From IMG/VR virus record IMGVR_UViG_3300036801_000076, positions 1 to 42,177 of that record: 42,177 nt of DNA; one strand, 5' to 3'. Below the pieces are notes generated by a model, which was not told the DNA's origin, ran no database searches, and saw only the letters and a program-made list of their open reading frames with translations. Shown piece after piece: positions 27,172 through 41,838 of the stretch (positions are counted from its first letter, which is position 1; each line of letters starts with the position of its first letter). The translations under genes and the position numbers were made by a program. This DNA is from a virus.

Positions 27172-27786
27172 ATGGACACATTCCCGCCCAACAGCCAGAA
27201 GTCGAAGGCGGCGCCTCCGACGCCCCGGCGAGTCGAACGCGTCACCTCCGCTGGAGCTGTTCGGCGCAGGAAGCCGCTCGGCAGGCAGTTCAAGCACACC
27301 TTCTTCAACGGTGACGGCCGCTCCGCACTGGAGTACATGGTCTACAGCGTCGCCCTCCCTGCCTTCAAGGAGATGATGCTCGACGCCGCCACCTCCGGCT
27401 TCGAGCGTCTGATCTACGGCGACAGCAGGCCCAAGCGTTCTGGCCCTTCGGGGCCGCTGGGCCACGTGGCCTACAACAAGATGCGTCAACCGTACGGGTC
27501 CGACGTTTCTCCCGTGCGTACGTCACGACCGAGCCGTGCCCGGCACGACTTCGGAGAACTCATCATCGCCTCGCGCGCCGAGGCAGAGGAGGTTCTCGAC
27601 CGTATGTACGACCTGATCTCGAAGTACGACTCCGCCAGCGTGGCCGATCTGTACGAGCTCACGGGCATCGAGAGCGCCCACACTGACCACAAGTGGGGCT
27701 GGAGGGAGCTCCATGGGTCCTCGTTCGGGAGGGTCCGCGGTGGCGGCTACCTCCTCAACCTTCCGGAGCCGGTGCCTCTCGACTGA
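27172..27786 (+). CDS. Conserved phage protein, unknown function
   Basis: A 204-residue protein. It has a basic N-terminus (PNSQKSKAAPPTPRRVERV), a helical middle (SALEYMVYSVALPAFKEMML), a Ser/Pro/Arg linker, and a C-terminal domain with GELIIASRAEAEEVLDRMYD, SKYDSASVADLYELTGI and HKWGWRELHGSSFGRVRGGG. The same domain order is common in phages of Firmicutes and Actinobacteria, always without known function. The start follows GAGAGGACTT. It begins the longer transcription unit that runs into the replication genes. Confidence 0.7.
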   Translation: MDTFPPNSQKSKAAPPTPRRVERVTSAGAVRRRKPLGRQFKHTFFNGDGRSALEYMVYSVALPAFKEMMLDAATSGFERLIYGDSRPKRSGPSGPLGHVAYNKMRQPYGSDVSPVRTSRPSRARHDFGELIIASRAEAEEVLDRMYDLISKYDSASVADLYELTGIESAHTDHKWGWRELHGSSFGRVRGGGYLLNLPEPVPLD

Positions 27787-27788
27787 TC

Positions 27789-27965
27789 ATGACCGACGCC
27801 GAGAAGCGCAAGTTTGTCTCGGACCTGTATCCGGGACGTAAGTGGAAGCGCTTGGTGGACAAGATGAGCGTATCCCAGGTCTTCGCGATCTGGAAGAAAG
27901 AGCAGCTGAAGCTCCAACCGCCGGACCCCAAGCCCAAAAACGACAAGAACGACATTCCGTTCTAG
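27789..27965 (+). CDS. Small helical phage protein
   Basis: A 58-residue protein: RKFVSDLYPGRKWKRLVDKM, SVSQVFAIWKKEQ, then a proline/lysine tail. The short helical domain DLYPGxKWKxxVDKMSxxQVxAI is familiar as a small stand-alone phage protein or as an appendage to other phage proteins. No function known. The ATG begins two bases after the previous stop, so it depends on coupling. Confidence 0.6.
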   Translation: MTDAEKRKFVSDLYPGRKWKRLVDKMSVSQVFAIWKKEQLKLQPPDPKPKNDKNDIPF

Positions 27966-27978
27966 AGAGGCACAAGCT

Positions 27979-28896
27979 ATGAAGTTCGTTCCGAAGGCGG
28001 TGAGCCGAAGGGTCGGGCAGCAGTTGCTGTCGACCCGAGAGGTCTCGCCATCGTTGCTGTTCGGAGTCGGGGTGTTCGGCATGGTCGGCGCCACCGTGCT
28101 CGCCTGCCGGGCCACGCTGAAGGTCGAGCCGGTCATCGAGACCGCTCAGAACGACCTGGCCGTGGCGCAGGAGATGACGGCGGAGCCCGAGTACACCACC
28201 CAGGATCACCGCGAGACCGTCGGCCGCGTCTACGTCAAGTCGGGCCTCGCTCTGGCTCGCCTGTACGCCCCGTCCGTTCTTCTCGGCGCCGCATCGATCG
28301 GCTGCCTGACCAAGTCCCACAACATCCTCATGCAGCGCAACGCCGCGCTGACCGCCGCCTACATCGCCGTCGACCAGGCGTTCAAGGAGTACCGCGAGCG
28401 GGTCGTCGACAAGTACGGCGAGGACCAGGATCGGGAGTTCCGGTACGAGTCCGAGGTGGTGGAGATCATCACCCCCTCGGGAAAACTCAACACCGAGCTC
28501 CGCGTCGCTCCCGGCGCGGCCTCGCAGTATGCGCGCTTCTTCGACGAATACTCGAAGGAGTGGTCGAAGGAACCCGAGTACAACCTCGTGTTCCTGCGCT
28601 GCCAGCAGCAGTGGGCGAACGACATGCTCCACATGCGCGGCCACATGTTCCTGAACGAGATCTACGACCGGCTGGGTCTCGAGCGTTCGCAAGCTGGGTC
28701 CGTTGTCGGATGGAAGATCTCCGACGACGGCGACAACTTCATCGACTTCGGGATCTACACCGACCGCAGCATGTCGGCCACCCGCGACTTCGTCAACGGC
28801 CGGGAGGGGTCGGTCCTTCTCGACTTCAACGTCGACGGTCTCATCTGGGACAAGATCGATGAGAAGGGCAAGGAGCGCATCAGATGGCAGAGCTGA
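27979..28896 (+). CDS. DUF6353-like phage membrane protein, copy 2
   Basis: A 305-residue protein with two membrane segments (about 26-46, SLLFGVGVFGMVGATVLAC; and 98-114, LYAPSVLLGAASIGCL). It continues with HNILMQRNAALTAAYIAVDQ, an acidic helix, then a beta-rich C-terminus with EIYDRLGLERSQAGSVVGWK. The order and wording parallel copy 1 at 25045 (ALTAAY..., YDKVGL...GWN). The ribosome site is AGAGGCACAAGC. It overlaps the following membrane protein gene by 13 bases; the pair may act together at the host membrane. Confidence 0.68.
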   Translation: MKFVPKAVSRRVGQQLLSTREVSPSLLFGVGVFGMVGATVLACRATLKVEPVIETAQNDLAVAQEMTAEPEYTTQDHRETVGRVYVKSGLALARLYAPSVLLGAASIGCLTKSHNILMQRNAALTAAYIAVDQAFKEYRERVVDKYGEDQDREFRYESEVVEIITPSGKLNTELRVAPGAASQYARFFDEYSKEWSKEPEYNLVFLRCQQQWANDMLHMRGHMFLNEIYDRLGLERSQAGSVVGWKISDDGDNFIDFGIYTDRSMSATRDFVNGREGSVLLDFNVDGLIWDKIDEKGKERIRWQS

Positions 28897-29660
28897 CCGA
28901 GGTGGCTGAAGAGGTCGCCGACGTCGTCGAGGAGGCCATCGATGACGGCATCTACATCAAGGGCTGGGTCGGCTTCGTCATGACCGCGGTCGGCGCCGGT
29001 GTCGGCGCCTTCGTCGGCTACCGGGTGGCCCAGCGTCGTCTGCGCGACGAGTACGCCCGGGAAGCCGAGACCGAGATCGACCAGATGCGAGAGCACTTCC
29101 GGGCTCGCCTCATGGTCCGGGAGTCCAAGCCCGAGATCACCGACCTGAACCAGCGGGTCGAGCAGCTGGGCTACGCATCGACACCCAAGGAGAAGTCCAC
29201 GGAGGAGAAGGCGGCAGGGCCGGGGGATCCGAATACCTCCGTCGTGCCGCAGGACATCCGCAACGTCTTCGACACGGCACAGGACAAGGACCACGAGTGG
29301 GACTACGAGATCGAGGAGGCCATCCGGGCCGAGCTCGGCGACCGGCCGCACGTGATCCACGTCGACGAGCGACACGAGACGGAGAACGAGGAGATCACCC
29401 TCACGTACTACGAGGGCGACGACGTCCTGTGTGACATGCAGGACAACATCATCGACAACCCGGATGCGGTCGTCGGTGAGGCCAACCTGAGTCGCTTCGG
29501 CCACGGCTCGGGCGACAGGAACATCGTCTACATCCGGAACCCCGTGCTGCACACCGACATCGAGGTGTGCCTCTCGACCGGTACCTACGCGGAGGAGGTC
29601 CATGGGCTCAAGCACAGCGACGTCCCGCCGCGGAGGCGACGACGATCGCGAGAGGAGTGA
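28884..29660 (+). CDS. Membrane protein with coiled coil, conserved in phages
   Basis: A 258-residue protein: an acidic start (LTEVAEEVADVVEEAID), one membrane segment (GFVMTAVGAGVGAFVGYRVA, about 30-49), a charged coiled coil, a linker, and a C-terminal domain with ITLTYYEGDDVLCDMQDNII and NIVYIRNPVLHTDIEVCLS. The tail is arginine-rich (PPRRRRRSREE). The C-terminal domain is found in many phages beside the DUF6353 protein. Function unknown. It overlaps the next gene by 59 bases. Confidence 0.65.
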   Translation: MAELTEVAEEVADVVEEAIDDGIYIKGWVGFVMTAVGAGVGAFVGYRVAQRRLRDEYAREAETEIDQMREHFRARLMVRESKPEITDLNQRVEQLGYASTPKEKSTEEKAAGPGDPNTSVVPQDIRNVFDTAQDKDHEWDYEIEEAIRAELGDRPHVIHVDERHETENEEITLTYYEGDDVLCDMQDNIIDNPDAVVGEANLSRFGHGSGDRNIVYIRNPVLHTDIEVCLSTGTYAEEVHGLKHSDVPPRRRRRSREE

Positions 29661-30171
29661 CCCGCTAGGGGAAGCATATTTCCACTGGCTGGTCGAGCAG
29701 GTCCGAGAGGAGGGACACCAGCGGAAGACGTACTGGGACCTCCTCAAGATCATGCACACCGCAGAGTTCGTCTGGCTCGTCCCGAACGATGACAATCGTA
29801 TCTCGGACGGGCTGGACCTCCGGACCGAGTTCCTCAACGAGCAGGAGGAACGTGAGAGTACGGTCGATGGGCCCTGCTCGGTCCTCGAGGTGATGGTGGG
29901 TCTCTCCCGTCGGGTGGCATTCCTGGCGGGAGGGAATGCCGAGGGCTGGGCCTGGCAGCTCATGTGCAATCTCGAATTGCACAAACATCACGATCCGCTG
30001 CGTCGTCCCCGAACGGTGACGCAGATTCTCCATGCTCTGGTGTGGAGACTCTATGACCCTGATGGGTCAGGTGGGTTTTTTCCTCTTGGCTTTCCCAAGC
30101 AGGACCAGCGGAAGGTCGAGATCTGGTATCAGATGGCCGAGTACGTGCAGGAGATTCACCCCGAGTATTAG
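29602..30171 (+). CDS. Conserved phage protein preceding the replication gene
   Basis: A 189-residue protein. After a charged start come DPLGEAYFHWLVEQVREEGH, TYWDLLKIMHTAEFVWLVPN, DDNRISDGLDLRTEFLNEQ and SVLEVMVGLSRRVAFLAGG, ending GFFPLGFPKQDQRKVEIWYQ. It is mostly helical and rich in aromatic residues. I recognise this strongly conserved sequence from many phages, regularly next to DNA replication genes, with no assigned activity. It begins within the previous gene (long 59-base overlap); alternative starts further downstream would cut conserved residues. Confidence 0.68.
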   Translation: MGSSTATSRRGGDDDRERSDPLGEAYFHWLVEQVREEGHQRKTYWDLLKIMHTAEFVWLVPNDDNRISDGLDLRTEFLNEQEERESTVDGPCSVLEVMVGLSRRVAFLAGGNAEGWAWQLMCNLELHKHHDPLRRPRTVTQILHALVWRLYDPDGSGGFFPLGFPKQDQRKVEIWYQMAEYVQEIHPEY

Positions 30172-30183
30172 AAAGGAGGTGTA

Positions 30184-33100
30184 GTGGACTTCTATCAGAT
30201 CCGTGAAAAGGAGCTGAAATCCGGGAAGATCGAGCTGTATCCGGACTTCACCGTGGGGCGATCGGCGGATCTGATGATCCGCGGAGGCAAGTTCTACGCG
30301 ATCTGGGACGAAGCGAAAGGGCTGTGGTCGCAGGATCCACTGGATGTGCGGAATCTGGTGGATCAGGATCTGAGAGAACAGGCTGCGGCCAGGTTCGACC
30401 AGACCAAGCAATACTGCCAGATCAGAACCCTGGGGTCATACGGCAACGGCGCCTGGAAGGAGTTCAAGAAGTACGAGCGGGAGACCCCGGACGTCTGGTA
30501 CCCGCTCAACACCAAGGTGATATTTGCCAACACCGAGGTGAAGAAGACGGACTACGCCAGTCGCAGGCTGCCGTATTCGCTCGAAGACGGTGATATCTCG
30601 GCGTGGGACGAGCTGGTGTCACTGCTCTACGATCCGGAGGAGCGGCACAAGTTCGAGTGGGCAATCGGCTCGATCGTGGCGGGGGACTCGAAGAAGATTC
30701 AGAAGTTCCTCGTGTTCTACGGGCAGTCGGGGATAGGGAAGTCGACGATCCTCAGGGTGATCGAGCAGATGTTCGATGGGTACGACGCCCACTTCGACGG
30801 CAAGGCTCTCGGATCGAGCAACGGGCAATTCGCCACTTCGGTGTTCAAGAACCACCCACTGGTCGCCATTCAGCACGACGGCGACCTGAGCCGGATCGAG
30901 GACAACACCCGGCTGAACTCGATCATCGCGCACGAGCCGATGTCGATCAACGAGAAGTACAAGACGGACTACACCGCATCGATCGATGCGATGCTGTTCA
31001 TGGCGTCGAACCAACCGGTGAAGATCTCCGATTCGAAGTCGGGGATCCTGCGTCGTCTGATCGACGTACGCCCTACGGGGCTGACGTTCACACCGAAGAA
31101 GTACGACGTCCTGATGGGCAAGATCTCGTTTGAGCTCGGGGCGATCGCGTATCACTGCCTGCAGGTCTATCTGACCGCGGGCCCTAAGTATTACAACGAC
31201 TACCGGCCCACCGAGATGATGTTGCAGACGGATCCGTTCTACAACTTCATCGAGGACCACTTCGACATATTCACCCATCAGCAGTACGTCACCCTGAGGC
31301 AGGCCTGGGACCTGTACAAGGAGTGGTGCGAGCGTACGGGGGTGGACAAACCGCGTCCGATGTACCGGATCCGGGCGGACCTGGAATCATATTTTCAGCA
31401 CTTCCACGAGCGGATGTTCGTGGACGGGGAGAACCTTCGCAGCGTCTACGAGGGATTCATCGGCGACAAGTTCAAGGCGCCGAAGGATGGCAACGGCGCA
31501 TACATCCTCGTGCTGGAGGAGACCGACTCGCTGCTCGACGAGGAGATGACGCACCAGCCGGCCCAGCTGGCCAAGCCGGATGGGACTCCGGCACGCAAAT
31601 GGTCCAACGTCCGGACCAAGCTGTTGGACATCAACTCCTCAGAGTTGCACTGGCTGAGGATGCCGCCGAACCACATCGTCATAGACTTCGACCTGAAGGA
31701 CGTCAATGGGACGAAGGCGTTGGAGAGGAACCTCGAGGCTGCCAGCCACTGGCCGAGCTCGTACGCCGAGATCAGCAAGAGCGGGGACGGGATCCATCTG
31801 CACTACGTGTACGAGGGAGACACGACCCAGCTGGCGTCGTCATATTCGTCAGGCATCGAGGTGAAGACGTTTCACGAGGACGCTTCATTGCGCAGGAGGT
31901 TGTCACGATGCAACGCGATACCGATCGCCAGCATCAGCAGCGGCCTGCCGCTAAAGAAAAAGGAGAAGATGCTCAAGTCCAAGACGATCAACACCGAGAA
32001 GGGGCTCAGGGAACTGATCGGGCGCAACATGCGCAAGGAGATCCACCCTGGTACAAAGCCCTCGATCGACTTCATCAAGAAGATCCTGGACGACGCGTAC
32101 GAGTCGGGTATCGCGTACGACGTAAGCGATCTGAGGCCGAGGATGATCGCCTTCGCCAACAACTCCACGAATCAGGCGGCCAATTCTCTCAAGATCGTAA
32201 GAGAGATGAAGTGGGCCTCCGAAACCCCCGGGGAGGATTTTCCGGCAGATGTTTCCGTGCCGGTGGACGACGAGCGTCTGGCCTTCTTCGACGTCGAGGT
32301 GTACAAGAACCTCTTCGTAATCTGCTGGAAGTTCCAAGGGGCGGACGAAGTCGTTCGGATGATCAATCCGTCACCCGCCGAAATCCAGCAGCTGTTCAAG
32401 CTCAAACTGGTGGGTTTCTACAACCGCCGGTACGACAACCACATCGTCTACGCCGCCTCGATGGGGACAACGACGGAAGAGCTGTTTCGGCTCAGCGCCA
32501 AGCTGATCGAGGGGAACAGGGGTGCGGCATTCGGCGCCGCGTACAACCTGTCCTATGCGGACATCTGGGACTTCTCGTCAGAGAAGATGGGCTTGAAGAA
32601 GTTCGAGATCAAGCTCGGCATTCTCCACATGGAACTCGATCTGCCCTGGGACGAGCCCGTGGACGAGAAGGACTGGGAGCGCGTGGTGGAGTATTGCTGC
32701 AACGACGTACGCGCCACCGAGGCGGTCTTCGAGGATAGGAAGGGCGACTTCGTCGCTCGCCAGATCCTCGCAGAGCTCTCCGGGCTGAGCGTCAACGACT
32801 CCACCCAGGCCCACACGGCCAAGATCATATTCGGGGACGACAAGCGCCCGCAGAAGAAGTTCGTCTACACGGACCTCTCGACGGAGTTCCCCGGATACAA
32901 GTTCGAGCTCGGCAAGAGCTACTACCAAGGCGAAGAGCCTGGCGAAGGCGGATACGTCTACGCCGAGCCCGGCATGTACGAGAACGTCGTGGTCATGGAT
33001 GTCATATCCATGCACCCCACCAGCATCGAGATCCTCAATCTATTCGGTCCATACACTCAAAATTTCTCGGATCTCAAGACCGCGCGTGTGCACATCAAAC

Positions 33101-33954
33101 ACGGCGACTTCGACGAAGCCCGGCGTATGCTGGACGGTCGACTGGCGCCTTATTTGGAAGATGAGTCCACCGCGGAGCAGCTGGCGTATGCGCTGAAGAT
33201 CGTGGTCAACACGGTCTACGGCCTGACCTCGGCCAAGTTCGACAACGCGTTCCGCGACATCCGCAACGTGGACAACATCGCGGCCAAGCGCGGTGCGCTG
33301 TTCATGATCGACCTGAAGAACTACCTCCAAGACGAAGGGTACCAGGTCATCCACATCAAGACGGACTCGGTGAAGGTGCCGAGTGGGGATCCCATGATCA
33401 TCGCCAAGATCCTGGCGTTCGGCAAGATGTGGGGCTACGACTTCGAGCACGAGGTGACGTACGACAAGTTCGTCCTCGTGAACGACGCCGTGTACGTGGC
33501 CGGTCTGAAGAAGATCCCGTGGGACGAGAAGTTCCCTGGCTACGACTGGAGCGCCACGGGAGCGCAGTTCGCTCACCCCTACGTGTTCAAGACCCTGTTC
33601 TCGGGAGAGGAGATCGAGTTCAAGGACATGTGCGAGGCGCGGAGTGTCCTCAAGGGCACGATGTATCTCGACATGCGCGGTTCGGATCTGGATCAGCCGG
33701 ACCACACCAAGATGCGCCACGTCGGAAAGACCGGGCTGTTCGTGCCGGTTCTGGAGGGCGGCGGCGTACTGTACCGCGTGAACGACGACAAGTATTACGC
33801 GGTGGCAGGAACGAAGGGTCATCTATGGATGGAGGCGCATATCGCCGAAGGCCTGGATGATGTCAAGATCGACATGTCATATTTCGAGAAACTGCAGAAG
33901 GAAGCGGTCGAGACGATCGACAACTTCGGCGACTTCCACGAGTTCGTCCGATAA
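30184..33954 (+). CDS. SF3 helicase - AEP primase - family B DNA polymerase fusion
   Basis: A 1256-residue replication protein. SF3/D5-like helicase (about 130-400): Walker A GQSGIGKST (180-188), acidic Walker B at QHDGD (230-234), sensor MASNQP (273-278). Archaeo-eukaryotic primase-like domain (about 430-590): IDFDLKD with D501/D503, SKSGDGIHLH (531-540), GIEVKTF with E559. Family B polymerase (about 695-1256): exonuclease motifs FDVEVY (D703, E705), NRRYD (747-751), YCCND (837-841); polymerase motif A DVISMHPTS (D939), motif B KIVVNTVYG (1005-1013), motif C IKTDS (1058-1062), where Lys1059 replaces the first Asp of the usual DTDS. The GTG start follows AAAGGAGGTGTA. It should unwind, prime, copy and proofread phage DNA. 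Confidence 0.88.
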   Translation: MDFYQIREKELKSGKIELYPDFTVGRSADLMIRGGKFYAIWDEAKGLWSQDPLDVRNLVDQDLREQAAARFDQTKQYCQIRTLGSYGNGAWKEFKKYERETPDVWYPLNTKVIFANTEVKKTDYASRRLPYSLEDGDISAWDELVSLLYDPEERHKFEWAIGSIVAGDSKKIQKFLVFYGQSGIGKSTILRVIEQMFDGYDAHFDGKALGSSNGQFATSVFKNHPLVAIQHDGDLSRIEDNTRLNSIIAHEPMSINEKYKTDYTASIDAMLFMASNQPVKISDSKSGILRRLIDVRPTGLTFTPKKYDVLMGKISFELGAIAYHCLQVYLTAGPKYYNDYRPTEMMLQTDPFYNFIEDHFDIFTHQQYVTLRQAWDLYKEWCERTGVDKPRPMYRIRADLESYFQHFHERMFVDGENLRSVYEGFIGDKFKAPKDGNGAYILVLEETDSLLDEEMTHQPAQLAKPDGTPARKWSNVRTKLLDINSSELHWLRMPPNHIVIDFDLKDVNGTKALERNLEAASHWPSSYAEISKSGDGIHLHYVYEGDTTQLASSYSSGIEVKTFHEDASLRRRLSRCNAIPIASISSGLPLKKKEKMLKSKTINTEKGLRELIGRNMRKEIHPGTKPSIDFIKKILDDAYESGIAYDVSDLRPRMIAFANNSTNQAANSLKIVREMKWASETPGEDFPADVSVPVDDERLAFFDVEVYKNLFVICWKFQGADEVVRMINPSPAEIQQLFKLKLVGFYNRRYDNHIVYAASMGTTTEELFRLSAKLIEGNRGAAFGAAYNLSYADIWDFSSEKMGLKKFEIKLGILHMELDLPWDEPVDEKDWERVVEYCCNDVRATEAVFEDRKGDFVARQILAELSGLSVNDSTQAHTAKIIFGDDKRPQKKFVYTDLSTEFPGYKFELGKSYYQGEEPGEGGYVYAEPGMYENVVVMDVISMHPTSIEILNLFGPYTQNFSDLKTARVHIKHGDFDEARRMLDGRLAPYLEDESTAEQLAYALKIVVNTVYGLTSAKFDNAFRDIRNVDNIAAKRGALFMIDLKNYLQDEGYQVIHIKTDSVKVPSGDPMIIAKILAFGKMWGYDFEHEVTYDKFVLVNDAVYVAGLKKIPWDEKFPGYDWSATGAQFAHPYVFKTLFSGEEIEFKDMCEARSVLKGTMYLDMRGSDLDQPDHTKMRHVGKTGLFVPVLEGGGVLYRVNDDKYYAVAGTKGHLWMEAHIAEGLDDVKIDMSYFEKLQKEAVETIDNFGDFHEFVR

Positions 33955-36301: not shown

Positions 36302-37486
36302 ATGGATCCCACCCTACGGCCGCACCAGCAGGATGCACTGGGGCGACTTGAAAACGGCAACATCCTGTGGGGTGGGGTCGGATCGGGGAAGACTCGAGTT
36401 GCCCTGGCGTACTACGTTCAGCATGAGTCCCCCAAGCAGTTGATCGTGATCACGACGGCAAAGAAGCGGGACAGCCTGGACTGGGAGTCGGAGGCTGCCC
36501 GATTCACGATCGGCAAGGAACCGGCATCGTCTCGACACGGCACGATCGTCGTAGACAGCTGGAACAACCTCCACAAGTATCTGGAGGTCTCGAACCAGTT
36601 CTTCGTGTTCGACGAGCAGCGGCTGGTGGGATCTGGGCAGTGGGCCAAGTGGTTCCAGAAGATCGCGGACAAGAACAACTGGATCATGCTATCGGCTACG
36701 CCTGGGGACACTTGGCTGGATTACATCCCCGTGTTCCTGGCCAACGGGTTCTACCGCAACCGTACGCAGTTCAAGCGGGAGCACGTGATCTGGAAGCCGT
36801 ACATGAACTATCCGGTCGTGGATCGCTATGTAAACGTCCAGCGCCTCGTGAAGCTGCGACACCAGATCCTGGTCCACATGCCTTACGAGCGGGAGACGGT
36901 ACGACACCCGGTGAACATCTGGGTCGAGCACGACGAGGCCTTGATGGAGCAGGTGGACAAGGAGCTCTGGAACCCGTTCGAGGAGCGCCCGATTCAGGAC
37001 GTGGCGGAGAAGTTCTACCTGATGCGGAAGGTAGCGAACTCCGATCTGACTCGCCTGGAGGAGCTGAAGAAGCTGATCGAGCGTCATCGCCGCTTGATCG
37101 TCTTCTACAACTTCAACTACGAGCTGGCTGTCCTGCGCAGCCTGAAGGAAGAGGTAGAGTTCGCGGAGTGGAACGGCCACAAGCATCAAGACCTGCCCAG
37201 CGGGGACAAGTGGGTCTACGCGGTTCAGTACGCCGCAGGGGCCGAAGGCTGGAACTGCATCGAGACCGACGCAATCGCCTTCTGGAGCCTGACATATTCG
37301 TATAAACTGTGGGAGCAGGCCCACGGCAGAATTGACCGATTGAACACGCCGTACACAGATCTGTGGTATTACGCGTTCCGATCGAAGGCGAAGATCGACG
37401 CGGCCATCTGGAGGAGCTTGAAGGCGAAGAAAAACTTCCAAATGAGCGATTATGACAAGAAAAACTCGCAATTTGCGGGAAAGTGA
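36302..37486 (+). CDS. SF2 DNA helicase (SNF2/restriction-type ATPase)
   Basis: A 394-residue helicase: Q-motif-like LRPHQQDAL, Walker A GGVGSGKT (24-31), motif II DEQR (104-107, in the place of the usual DEAD/DEAH), motif III SATP (131-134), motif V AAGAEGWN (311-318) and motif VI QAHGRIDR (339-346). The two RecA-like lobes are complete with no added nuclease domain. Such phage helicases remodel DNA or displace proteins during replication or recombination. The start follows AAAGGAGGTGGATC. It is followed by AT-rich repeats and two nucleases, suggesting a replication/recombination group. Confidence 0.85.
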   Translation: MDPTLRPHQQDALGRLENGNILWGGVGSGKTRVALAYYVQHESPKQLIVITTAKKRDSLDWESEAARFTIGKEPASSRHGTIVVDSWNNLHKYLEVSNQFFVFDEQRLVGSGQWAKWFQKIADKNNWIMLSATPGDTWLDYIPVFLANGFYRNRTQFKREHVIWKPYMNYPVVDRYVNVQRLVKLRHQILVHMPYERETVRHPVNIWVEHDEALMEQVDKELWNPFEERPIQDVAEKFYLMRKVANSDLTRLEELKKLIERHRRLIVFYNFNYELAVLRSLKEEVEFAEWNGHKHQDLPSGDKWVYAVQYAAGAEGWNCIETDAIAFWSLTYSYKLWEQAHGRIDRLNTPYTDLWYYAFRSKAKIDAAIWRSLKAKKNFQMSDYDKKNSQFAGK

Positions 37487-38589: not shown

Positions 38590-39094
38590 TACGTACCACT
38601 GGATCAACTACGACGAGGAGAAGCTTGCCTTTCGCTACAAGACGTTGCGAGCTGCGTTGGAGGGGATGGAACATCATCGTTACGCGGCCATCGCAATTGA
38701 AGAGCGTGAGATCCAGGACGACGAGACCACAACCGTGGGTCTGTACATCAACCAGTGCATTCAGTACCGGATGTCACCGGAGATGGTGCTGTACTACTCG
38801 CCGAATGCCTTCGGCACGGTAGACGCCATCGCTTATCGTTACCGGCGTCTGCGGATCTCCGATCTCAAGACGGGGGTCACTCGAGTGTCCGAACATCAGC
38901 TGGAGGTCTATGCTGCTCTGTTCTGTCTCGAGTATGGGATCGACCCGTTCTCCATGCGGGAGATCGAGCTCCGGATCTATCAGGATGACGTGTGCCGACC
39001 GTACGTCGGAGATCCTGGAGTGATCCGGGGCATCATGGACAAGATCGTTCGGTTCGATGATCTGCTCAATCAGCTCAGAGAGGAGGTGTCGTAG
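38534..39094 (+). CDS. Cas4/RecB-family exonuclease
   Basis: A 186-residue nuclease of the PD-(D/E)XK class: an N-terminal HxxLEGQHAFLSPSTYHWI segment, then VDAIAYRYRRLRISDLKTG, with D97, D110 and K112, and QLEVYAALF containing the following Gln/Tyr (Q122, Y126). These are the motifs of phage exonucleases related to Cas4 and RecB. It would resect DNA ends for recombination. The TTG at 38534 has GGAGG six bases upstream. Its stop shares a base with the next GTG. It has no Cys cluster, so it lacks the Fe-S centre of true Cas4. Confidence 0.75.
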   Translation: MRFNRHSHLEGQHAFLSPSTYHWINYDEEKLAFRYKTLRAALEGMEHHRYAAIAIEEREIQDDETTTVGLYINQCIQYRMSPEMVLYYSPNAFGTVDAIAYRYRRLRISDLKTGVTRVSEHQLEVYAALFCLEYGIDPFSMREIELRIYQDDVCRPYVGDPGVIRGIMDKIVRFDDLLNQLREEVS

Positions 39095-41838
39095 TGGTCG
39101 TTGTGAAGGCAGAAGATCATCTGAAGCATTACGGCACCAAGCGGCATTCCGGTCGCTATCCCTGGGGTTCGGGCAAGGATCCCATGCAGAGTGGAAGCGA
39201 CTTCCTCGCCGACATCGAATCCATGCGGAAGTCCGGTCTGTCGGACACCAAGATCGCCGAAGGCCTGGGCATCACCACGACACAGCTCCGAGCCCGCAAG
39301 TCGATCGCTCTGGCCGAGACGAAGCAGGCGAACATCCTCATGGCCCAGCGCCTGAAGGACAAGGGGCTGTCGAACGTCGCCATCGGACGACAGATGGGAC
39401 GCAACGAGTCCTACGTGCGTTCGCTGCTGGCTCCCGGAGAGAAGGACAAGGCCGACCAACTTCGCAGTATCGCCGACATGCTCAAGCGGCAGGTCGACGA
39501 GAAGAGCTACATCGACATCGGCGCAGGAACCGAGCTTGCGCTTCCGCTGAGTGACAATCCTTCGGCTACGATCGGCGTGGCGGCCACCAAGTTCCGGACT
39601 GCTGTGGCCATGCTGAAGGAAGAGGGATACATGACCCATGAGGTCCTGATCCCACAGCTCGGCACAAAGGACATGACGAGGGTTCTGGTTCTGGCCAAGC
39701 CTGGAACCACTCAGCGCGATGCCTGGATGAACAGGCACAACATCGCCCTGATCAACGAGCGTTCGGAAGACCATGGGCGTGAAGGCTCCTGGATCGAGCC
39801 TCGTCCGCCTCTTTCCATGTCCTCCAAGCGAATTGCGATTCGCTATGGAAACGAAGGCGGTTCGGACAAGGACGGAATGATCGAGATCCGTCCTGGTGCC
39901 AAGGATCTGGACATGGGCTCTGCCCGCTACGCGCAGGTCCGGATTCTGGTCGACGGCACGCACTACCTCAAGGGCATGGCCGTCTACAACGACAAGCTTC
40001 CGCCCGGTACGGACATCGTCTTCAACACGAACAAGAGCAAGTCCGGTAGCAAGCTCGACGTGATGAAGGAAGTGAATCGCACCAAGGAGGGAAACGTCGA
40101 TCTGGAGAACCCCTTCGGAGCGGCGATCAAGCCTGGTGGCCAACGTGGCCATCTGAACATCCTTCGCGAAGAGGGCGACTGGGACCAGTGGAAGAACAAG
40201 CTGCCTTCCCAGATGCTCTCCAAGCAGAGTCCCGATTTGATCAAGCGTCAGCTCGATCGTACGTTCGAACGGCGTAAGCAGGAATTCGATGAGATCTCGT
40301 CTCTGACCAATCCTGCGGTCAAGCGGAAGCTCCTGAAGAGCTTCTCTGACGCTACGGACTCTTCGTCCGTGCATCTCGAAGCGGCCAACATGCCCCATCA
40401 GGCGACGAAGGTCCTGTTGCCGATTCCGTCGCTGAAGGAGAACGAGGTGTTCGCTCCCTCGTTCGAGAACGGAACGCGTCTGGCTCTGGTCCGATTCCCG
40501 CATGGTGGGACGTTCGAGATTCCCGATGTCGTCGTCAACAACAAGAATCGCGAAGCCCGCTCGATCATGGGGCACAACGCGACAGATGCGATCGGAATCC
40601 ATCCCAAGGTCGCAGAACGTCTGTCCGGAGCCGATTTCGACGGCGATCACGTCATCGCGATCCCGAACAACCGAGGCGAAGTCAAGAGCACTCCTGCTCT
40701 GGAAGGTCTGAAAGGGTTCGATCCCAAGCACTCGTTCCCGCCGTATGACGGAATGAAGACCGTCGATGGTGGAGTGTGGAGCGAGAAGCTGAAGAAGCCC
40801 GTCTATGGTGAGGAAGGCCCTCGGCCCGTCTTCATGCAGCGTCAGATGGGTGATGTTTCGAACCTGATCACCGACATGACCATCAAGGGCGCCTCTACTC
40901 CGGAGCTCGCTCGTGCAGTACGTCATTCCATGGTGGTCATCGATTCGGAGAAGCACAGTCTGGACATCAAGTCCTCGGCTCGTGACAACAACATCTCTGC
41001 GCTCAAGGTGAAGTATCAGGGAAGTGCTCGATCTGGGGCATCGACGCTTCTGAGTAAGGCTGGCGCAGAAGAACGAGTCAATGTCCGTCGTCAGAGGCGG
41101 GCCAATGAGGGCGGTCCGATCGATCCCGCTACGGGCAAGAAGATGTTCGTCGATACCGGTGCCACATACGTGGATCGGAAGACGGGCAAGACCGTGCTCA
41201 AGACCTTCAAGACCGAGAGACTGGCGGTTACGGACAACGCCCACGATCTCTCTTCTGGTACGCCTCAGGAAGAGCTCTACGCCGATCACTCCAATCGGCT
41301 CAAGGCCTTGGCCAACACCGCTCGTAAAGAGATGATTACGGTCAAGTCGATCCCCTACTCCGAATCATCCAAGCGGATCTACGCAGAAGAGGTCACCTCC
41401 CTCGACCGAAAGCTGACCGCTGCCAAGAAGAACGCCCCCCTCGAACGTCAAGCTCAGGTCATCGGGAACAAGGTGTACCATCAGAAGGTGCGTGCCAATC
41501 CTGACATGGGTGACGACGAGAAGAGGAAGATCAAGAATCAAGCGTTGGCGGAAGCCCGTGTGAGAGTCGGTGCTCACAAGGATCCGATCGAGATCGAAGG
41601 TCGTGAGTGGGAAGCGATCCAAGCAGGCGCTATCTCCAATCACAAGCTCGAAGAGATCCTGGACAATGGCAAGATCGAGCAGATCAAGCAACTGGCCATG
41701 CCGTCTACCAAGAAGCTGATGTCGCCCACCAACACAGCCAGGGCCAAGCAGATGCTGGATGCTGGGTTCACACAGGCTGAGGTGGCCAAGCAACTGGGCG
41801 TGTCACTGACCACGCTCAAGACTGGACTCGAGGAATGA
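39094..41838 (+). CDS. Predicted single-chain two-barrel RNA polymerase with HTH domains
   Basis: A 914-residue protein. Residues 9-28 carry the HYGTKRHSGRYPWGSG motif. HTH-like segments follow at about 48-70 (DTKIAEGLGITTTQLRARKS) and 92-112. Residues 290-325 (YLKGMAVYNDKLPPGTDIVF) resemble the barrel of bacterial RNA polymerase beta subunit (xxKGxI...DGTPVDIVLN...S). Residues 500-523 (IHPKVAERLSGADFDGDHV) match the beta' catalytic barrel (LHPLVCTAFNADFDGDQM) with D514, D516, D518 as Mg ligands. A third HTH segment ends the chain (892-911, FTQAEVAKQLGVSLTTLKTG). Both barrels in one chain is the design of YonO and crAss-phage polymerases. K293 fits one of the two catalytic lysines; I cannot place the other. 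Confidence 0.7.
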   Translation: MVVVKAEDHLKHYGTKRHSGRYPWGSGKDPMQSGSDFLADIESMRKSGLSDTKIAEGLGITTTQLRARKSIALAETKQANILMAQRLKDKGLSNVAIGRQMGRNESYVRSLLAPGEKDKADQLRSIADMLKRQVDEKSYIDIGAGTELALPLSDNPSATIGVAATKFRTAVAMLKEEGYMTHEVLIPQLGTKDMTRVLVLAKPGTTQRDAWMNRHNIALINERSEDHGREGSWIEPRPPLSMSSKRIAIRYGNEGGSDKDGMIEIRPGAKDLDMGSARYAQVRILVDGTHYLKGMAVYNDKLPPGTDIVFNTNKSKSGSKLDVMKEVNRTKEGNVDLENPFGAAIKPGGQRGHLNILREEGDWDQWKNKLPSQMLSKQSPDLIKRQLDRTFERRKQEFDEISSLTNPAVKRKLLKSFSDATDSSSVHLEAANMPHQATKVLLPIPSLKENEVFAPSFENGTRLALVRFPHGGTFEIPDVVVNNKNREARSIMGHNATDAIGIHPKVAERLSGADFDGDHVIAIPNNRGEVKSTPALEGLKGFDPKHSFPPYDGMKTVDGGVWSEKLKKPVYGEEGPRPVFMQRQMGDVSNLITDMTIKGASTPELARAVRHSMVVIDSEKHSLDIKSSARDNNISALKVKYQGSARSGASTLLSKAGAEERVNVRRQRRANEGGPIDPATGKKMFVDTGATYVDRKTGKTVLKTFKTERLAVTDNAHDLSSGTPQEELYADHSNRLKALANTARKEMITVKSIPYSESSKRIYAEEVTSLDRKLTAAKKNAPLERQAQVIGNKVYHQKVRANPDMGDDEKRKIKNQALAEARVRVGAHKDPIEIEGREWEAIQAGAISNHKLEEILDNGKIEQIKQLAMPSTKKLMSPTNTARAKQMLDAGFTQAEVAKQLGVSLTTLKTGLEE

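Follow-up and report, generated by a model that had tools for sequence, protein, structure and literature searches.

The virus record analysed here (the window, a whole IMG/VR record of 42,177 bases) encodes a single 1256-residue protein (30184–33954, + strand) in which an N-terminal SF3 helicase is followed by an AEP-type primase, then by a small helical domain and finally by a family B DNA polymerase (PolB) with an exonuclease. We consider it very probable that this protein is the replicative enzyme of the phage, a HelPrimPolB replicase of the type represented by GP55 of Lactococcus phage 1706. Domain content and order, conservation of the catalytic residues and the invariance of a lysine in polymerase motif C were all observed directly; we infer that the protein replicates the phage genome.

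The reading frame runs without a stop from a GTG start codon at 30184 to the stop codon at 33954, as seen by reading through the window, and is immediately preceded by a strong ribosome-binding site, AAAGGAGGTG. Together with this site, the skew in GC content between codon positions (0.55, 0.35 and 0.845 for positions one to three) indicates that the frame behaves like a real gene. The phrog_4210 profile matched residues 1–1255 (1869 bits), which is the whole chain. A preliminary description had placed a helicase, a primase and a proofreading PolB in one uninterrupted 1256-residue chain; all motifs that it named are present in the translation, its ranges (helicase, 130–400; primase, 430–590; PolB, 695–1256) agree with the domains found and, given the frame and the full-length profile match, the claim stands. 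A tblastn search with the replicase returned 448 phage records, 252 of which contain homologues that span 80% or more of the chain, and IMG/VR provided a further 24 plus at least 80 loci with the same single chain. As the same single chain recurs in these 252 phage records and the IMG/VR loci, the fusion is neither a chance event nor a sequencing error that hides a stop between the domains, one of the two flaws that the description had singled out as fatal.

The N-terminal domain (residues ~122–415; 30547–31428, + strand) is a D5/DUF5906-like SF3 helicase, as previously assigned, on the basis of matches to Pfam DUF5906 (E = 5e-12, above the cut-off) and to the D5-like primase-helicase PDB 7ola (E = 2e-6) as well as conservation. 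It contains a Walker A motif (residues 180–187, including K186), a Walker B-like IQHDGD motif (residues 229–234, including D232 and D234), a sensor residue (N276) and arginines at 290/291. Near the replicases of two other loci (L033, 3307–3759; L028, 2504–2959), we also found open reading frames of ~150 amino acids with similarity to the Walker A portion of the helicase domain; they are possibly paralogous fragments.

The following domain (residues ~436–605; 31489–31998, + strand) was identified as a PriS-like AEP primase catalytic domain using Foldseek, weak Pfam Prim-Pol matches and conservation. Pfam scans of the window protein by itself detected no AEP or PolB domain, so the assignments relied on profiles of the family and on predicted folds. 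The Prim-Pol and DNA_pol_B models weakly matched some other family members (Prim-Pol in 6 out of 28) but not the window protein, and a profile search with the primase segment found, among PDB sequences, nothing beyond chance matches to a lactococcin immunity protein. The segment had been proposed to be an AEP primase, a reading that hinged on a match to such enzymes: Foldseek comparison of its predicted structure (mean pLDDT of 88) with the PDB recovered ten AEP prim-pol structures, those of NrS-1 and pRN1, as the sole significant matches. The TM-scores to these solved structures were low (0.26–0.40), which indicates that the catalytic core alone is in common. In addition to the AEP fold, the segment possesses the hhhDhD motif (D501/D503), the sxH motif (H538, with H540) and the third acid (E559) of the superfamily; D501/D503, H538 and E559 are invariant among the homologues aligned. 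Alignment with GP55 and helices in the model place a helical domain directly after the primase (residues ~606–680, approximate limits; 31999–32223, + strand), matching the aHD of GP55, with Y645 and F657 corresponding to GP55 Y655 and F667. Priming by GP55 is reported to be carried out by its AEP domain and to require the aHD (PMC12205980). The window protein has an AEP domain, distinct from its PolB domain, in which the motifs are intact; in primer-independent PolBs (piPolBs), the PolB domain initiates synthesis by itself and no dedicated primase is involved.

Motifs, conservation and fold matches identify the C-terminal part as a 3′–5′ exonuclease domain (residues ~700–890; 32281–32853, + strand) followed by a family B polymerase domain (32854–33951, + strand). 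The model of residues 692–1254 (mean pLDDT of 91) has the fold of a family B polymerase with exonuclease (Foldseek E = 4e-16), in line with the earlier assignment of this region. All three exonuclease motifs (ExoI, D703/E705; ExoII, D751; ExoIII, Y837/D841), polymerase motifs A (D939) and B (K1005–G1013) and the second aspartate of motif C (KTDS, 1059–1062) are present. The DTD form of motif C, with two aspartates (usual, although not strict, in PolBs), is absent: K1059 (codon at 33358–33360, + strand) replaces the first. Apart from this aspartate, the Exo and Pol motifs are intact, and they are near-invariant across about 186 homologues.

The preliminary description had correctly read K1059-TDS in place of DTDS and had called for an alignment of motif C among relatives. 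In that alignment, the residue is lysine in 186/186 homologues covering the column, including GP55, in which K1076 aligns with K1059 and motif C is also KTDS; T1060, D1061 and S1062 are likewise invariant among the homologues that cover those columns. Given that the lysine is invariant and that the active GP55 shares it, the 'missing' acid is no anomaly of the window sequence. A sequencing error at K1059 was also considered and is ruled out by the invariance across homologues. The role attributed here to D1061 is the one generally known for PolBs. The suggestion that D939 and D1061 suffice fits both the invariance of K1059 and the polymerase activity measured for the KTDS-bearing GP55, which together indicate that one motif C aspartate is enough. 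Related exonuclease-PolBs that stand alone, with no fused helicase or primase, have NTDA (Enterococcus phage phiSHEF4) or NTDG (Pseudomonas phage HHBS29_1 and crAss-like phage phi14:2) at this position; the phi14:2 polymerase gene (L041) is interrupted, and its motif was read in a single frame within the middle part of the gene. The first motif C aspartate is missing from all three of these relatives as well and, in the sample compared, a lysine at this position sets the fused group apart. Motif C has been described as divergent in both HelPrimPolB and crAss-like PolBs (PMC7544198), and the one-aspartate motif appears to be a fixed trait of the family. There is a small chance that the invariant lysine, rather than passively replacing the aspartate, contributes actively to a PolB active site of a distinct kind; it might, for instance, hold the RNA-primed end or the incoming nucleotide while the fused primase hands over.

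Phage homologues of the replicase are found mostly in actinophages, usually annotated as 'DNA primase/polymerase', but also in Rhodococcus phage ReqiPepy6, in phages of the human gut and saliva, and in Lactococcus phage 1706. The ReqiPepy6 record already mentions a primase domain together with PolB. Contigs of GTDB genomes, from bins assigned to Bacillota, Bacteroidota and others, also encode homologues. In the tree, the window protein falls among uncultivated viruses, close to the clades of Gordonia/Rhodococcus and Streptomyces phages and distant from Lactococcus. Gordonia phage Pherobrine gp63 and ReqiPepy6 gp072 are full-length homologues (57–60% identical), and the actinophage proteins differ from the window protein in sequence divergence and short insertions only. 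It had been stated that most phages split these functions, which agrees with phiSHEF4 (separate genes for prim-pol and PolB) and HHBS29_1 (separate primase, helicase and polymerase genes); the rarity that this implied, however, does not hold: the architecture, with its order and divergent motif C, had been described before, and the biochemistry of one homologue, GP55, is known. Similarly, the helicase–primase–polymerase order is indeed not the usual one, but it is what defines HelPrimPolB. The window protein is thus a further member of a known and already studied enzyme group, and its architecture is not new. On one bacterial contig (L198, 5992–10060), the replicase occupies two reading frames, one of them encoding the first 367 residues, and a second locus (L194, from 5989) also has the replicase in two frames; these splits may reflect natural fission, decay or sequence error.

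Several other readings of the protein can be weighed against a replicase of the GP55 type. The fusion has next to no chance of being an annotation or sequencing artefact of what are in reality two or three genes: such a reading could draw on the separate genes of the more distant phiSHEF4 and HHBS29_1 and on the helicase part of L198 with its own frame, yet the frame is single and full-length in 252 phage records as well as in almost every locus retrieved, and GP55 was purified as a single chain (PMC12205980). Alternatively, loss of the motif C aspartate may have inactivated the PolB or specialised it for a structural or translesion role, with another polymerase copying the genome. K1059 does stand where most PolBs have aspartate, and archaeal PolB2, with one motif C aspartate, was once thought to be inactive (PMC7544198). 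However, the near-invariance of the remaining Exo and Pol motifs, the activity of piPolBs that also lack the first aspartate (PMC7544198) and primer extension by GP55 at as little as 1.25 nM enzyme, which refutes the idea for this homologue (PMC12205980), make this reading very unlikely.

It is somewhat less improbable, but still unlikely, that the same enzyme mainly initiates replication in vivo, through priming and short extension, and that host DNA polymerase III performs the bulk of the synthesis. Pol alpha–primase has such an initiation role in eukaryotes, and a non-exhaustive scan of genes in the window named neither a sliding clamp nor a clamp loader. Conversely, the proofreading exonuclease is intact, and GP55 is reported to yield very long products and to displace strands (PMC12205980), both of which favour a replicase that extends its own primers over one confined to initiation.

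The window encodes a tailed-phage gene set (terminase, portal, head protease, major tail protein, tape measure and Dit), followed by the replicase, an SF2 helicase (36302–37486), an endonuclease, a Cas4-like exonuclease and an RNA-polymerase-like protein. The SF2 helicase could share in unwinding. The RNA-polymerase-like protein (39094–41838, + strand; 914 amino acids) contains HTH segments and the metal motif DFDGD, matches phrog_4291 'RNA-dependent RNA polymerase' (1220 bits) and is likely to be a single-chain QDE-1/YonO-like RNA polymerase; in Bilo and Pherobrine, the genes in the corresponding position carry no annotation beyond HTH DNA-binding protein. Directly upstream of the replicase (27172–30171, + strand) lie four genes that match phrog_4079, phrog_2152/DUF6353, phrog_4695 and phrog_4678, all of unknown function, and phages of Gordonia, Streptomyces and Rhodococcus also have genes of similar size ahead of the replicase.

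In the mechanism that we propose, the N-terminal SF3 domain would unwind DNA, the AEP and helical domains would synthesise a short RNA primer, which the C-terminal PolB would then extend, proofreading with its own exonuclease—all within one chain that is probably dimeric. In the polymerase active site, D939 of motif A would act with D1061 of motif C; throughout the family, lysine takes the place of the first motif C aspartate.

The NrS-1 and pRN1 ORF904 prim-pols have the AEP catalytic fold in common with the window primase domain. In these enzymes, a single active site serves for both priming and polymerisation, there is no PolB, and the primase precedes the helicase. The closer counterpart is HelPrimPolB, a PolB fused to an N-terminal SF3 helicase and PrimPol, named by Kazlauskas et al. 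2020 with citation of earlier work (PMC7544198); the window protein shares its domain order and divergent motif C, and no difference was found. Zhang et al. 2025 reported that GP55 is a dimer with helicase, RNA primase, polymerase and 3′–5′ exonuclease activities and de novo DNA synthesis, with a UTP/dTTP-dependent helicase and a primase that prefers GTP at CCAAC (PMC12205980). GP55 (1317 amino acids) has the same order of helicase, PriS-like primase, aHD and exonuclease-PolB as the window protein, which shares 40% identity with it over 1216 aligned residues and belongs to an actinophage/soil-virus clade far from the Lactococcus pair that contains GP55. The seven GP55 residues probed by mutation and compared here (K189, D509, Y655, F667, D712, E714 and D949) are all identical in the window protein (K186, D503, Y645, F657, D703, E705 and D939); GP55 is reported to be an efficient polymerase, and its motif A mutant D949A to have lost polymerase activity (PMC12205980). 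By analogy, the window protein probably has the activities and nucleotide preferences of GP55 (a UTP/dTTP helicase and GTP primer start), although an identity of 40% leaves room for differences in the nucleotides preferred, in the site of priming or in the oligomeric state. The findings indicate that the compact all-in-one replicase known from one Lactococcus phage also serves as replicase in this uncultivated, actinophage-like virus.
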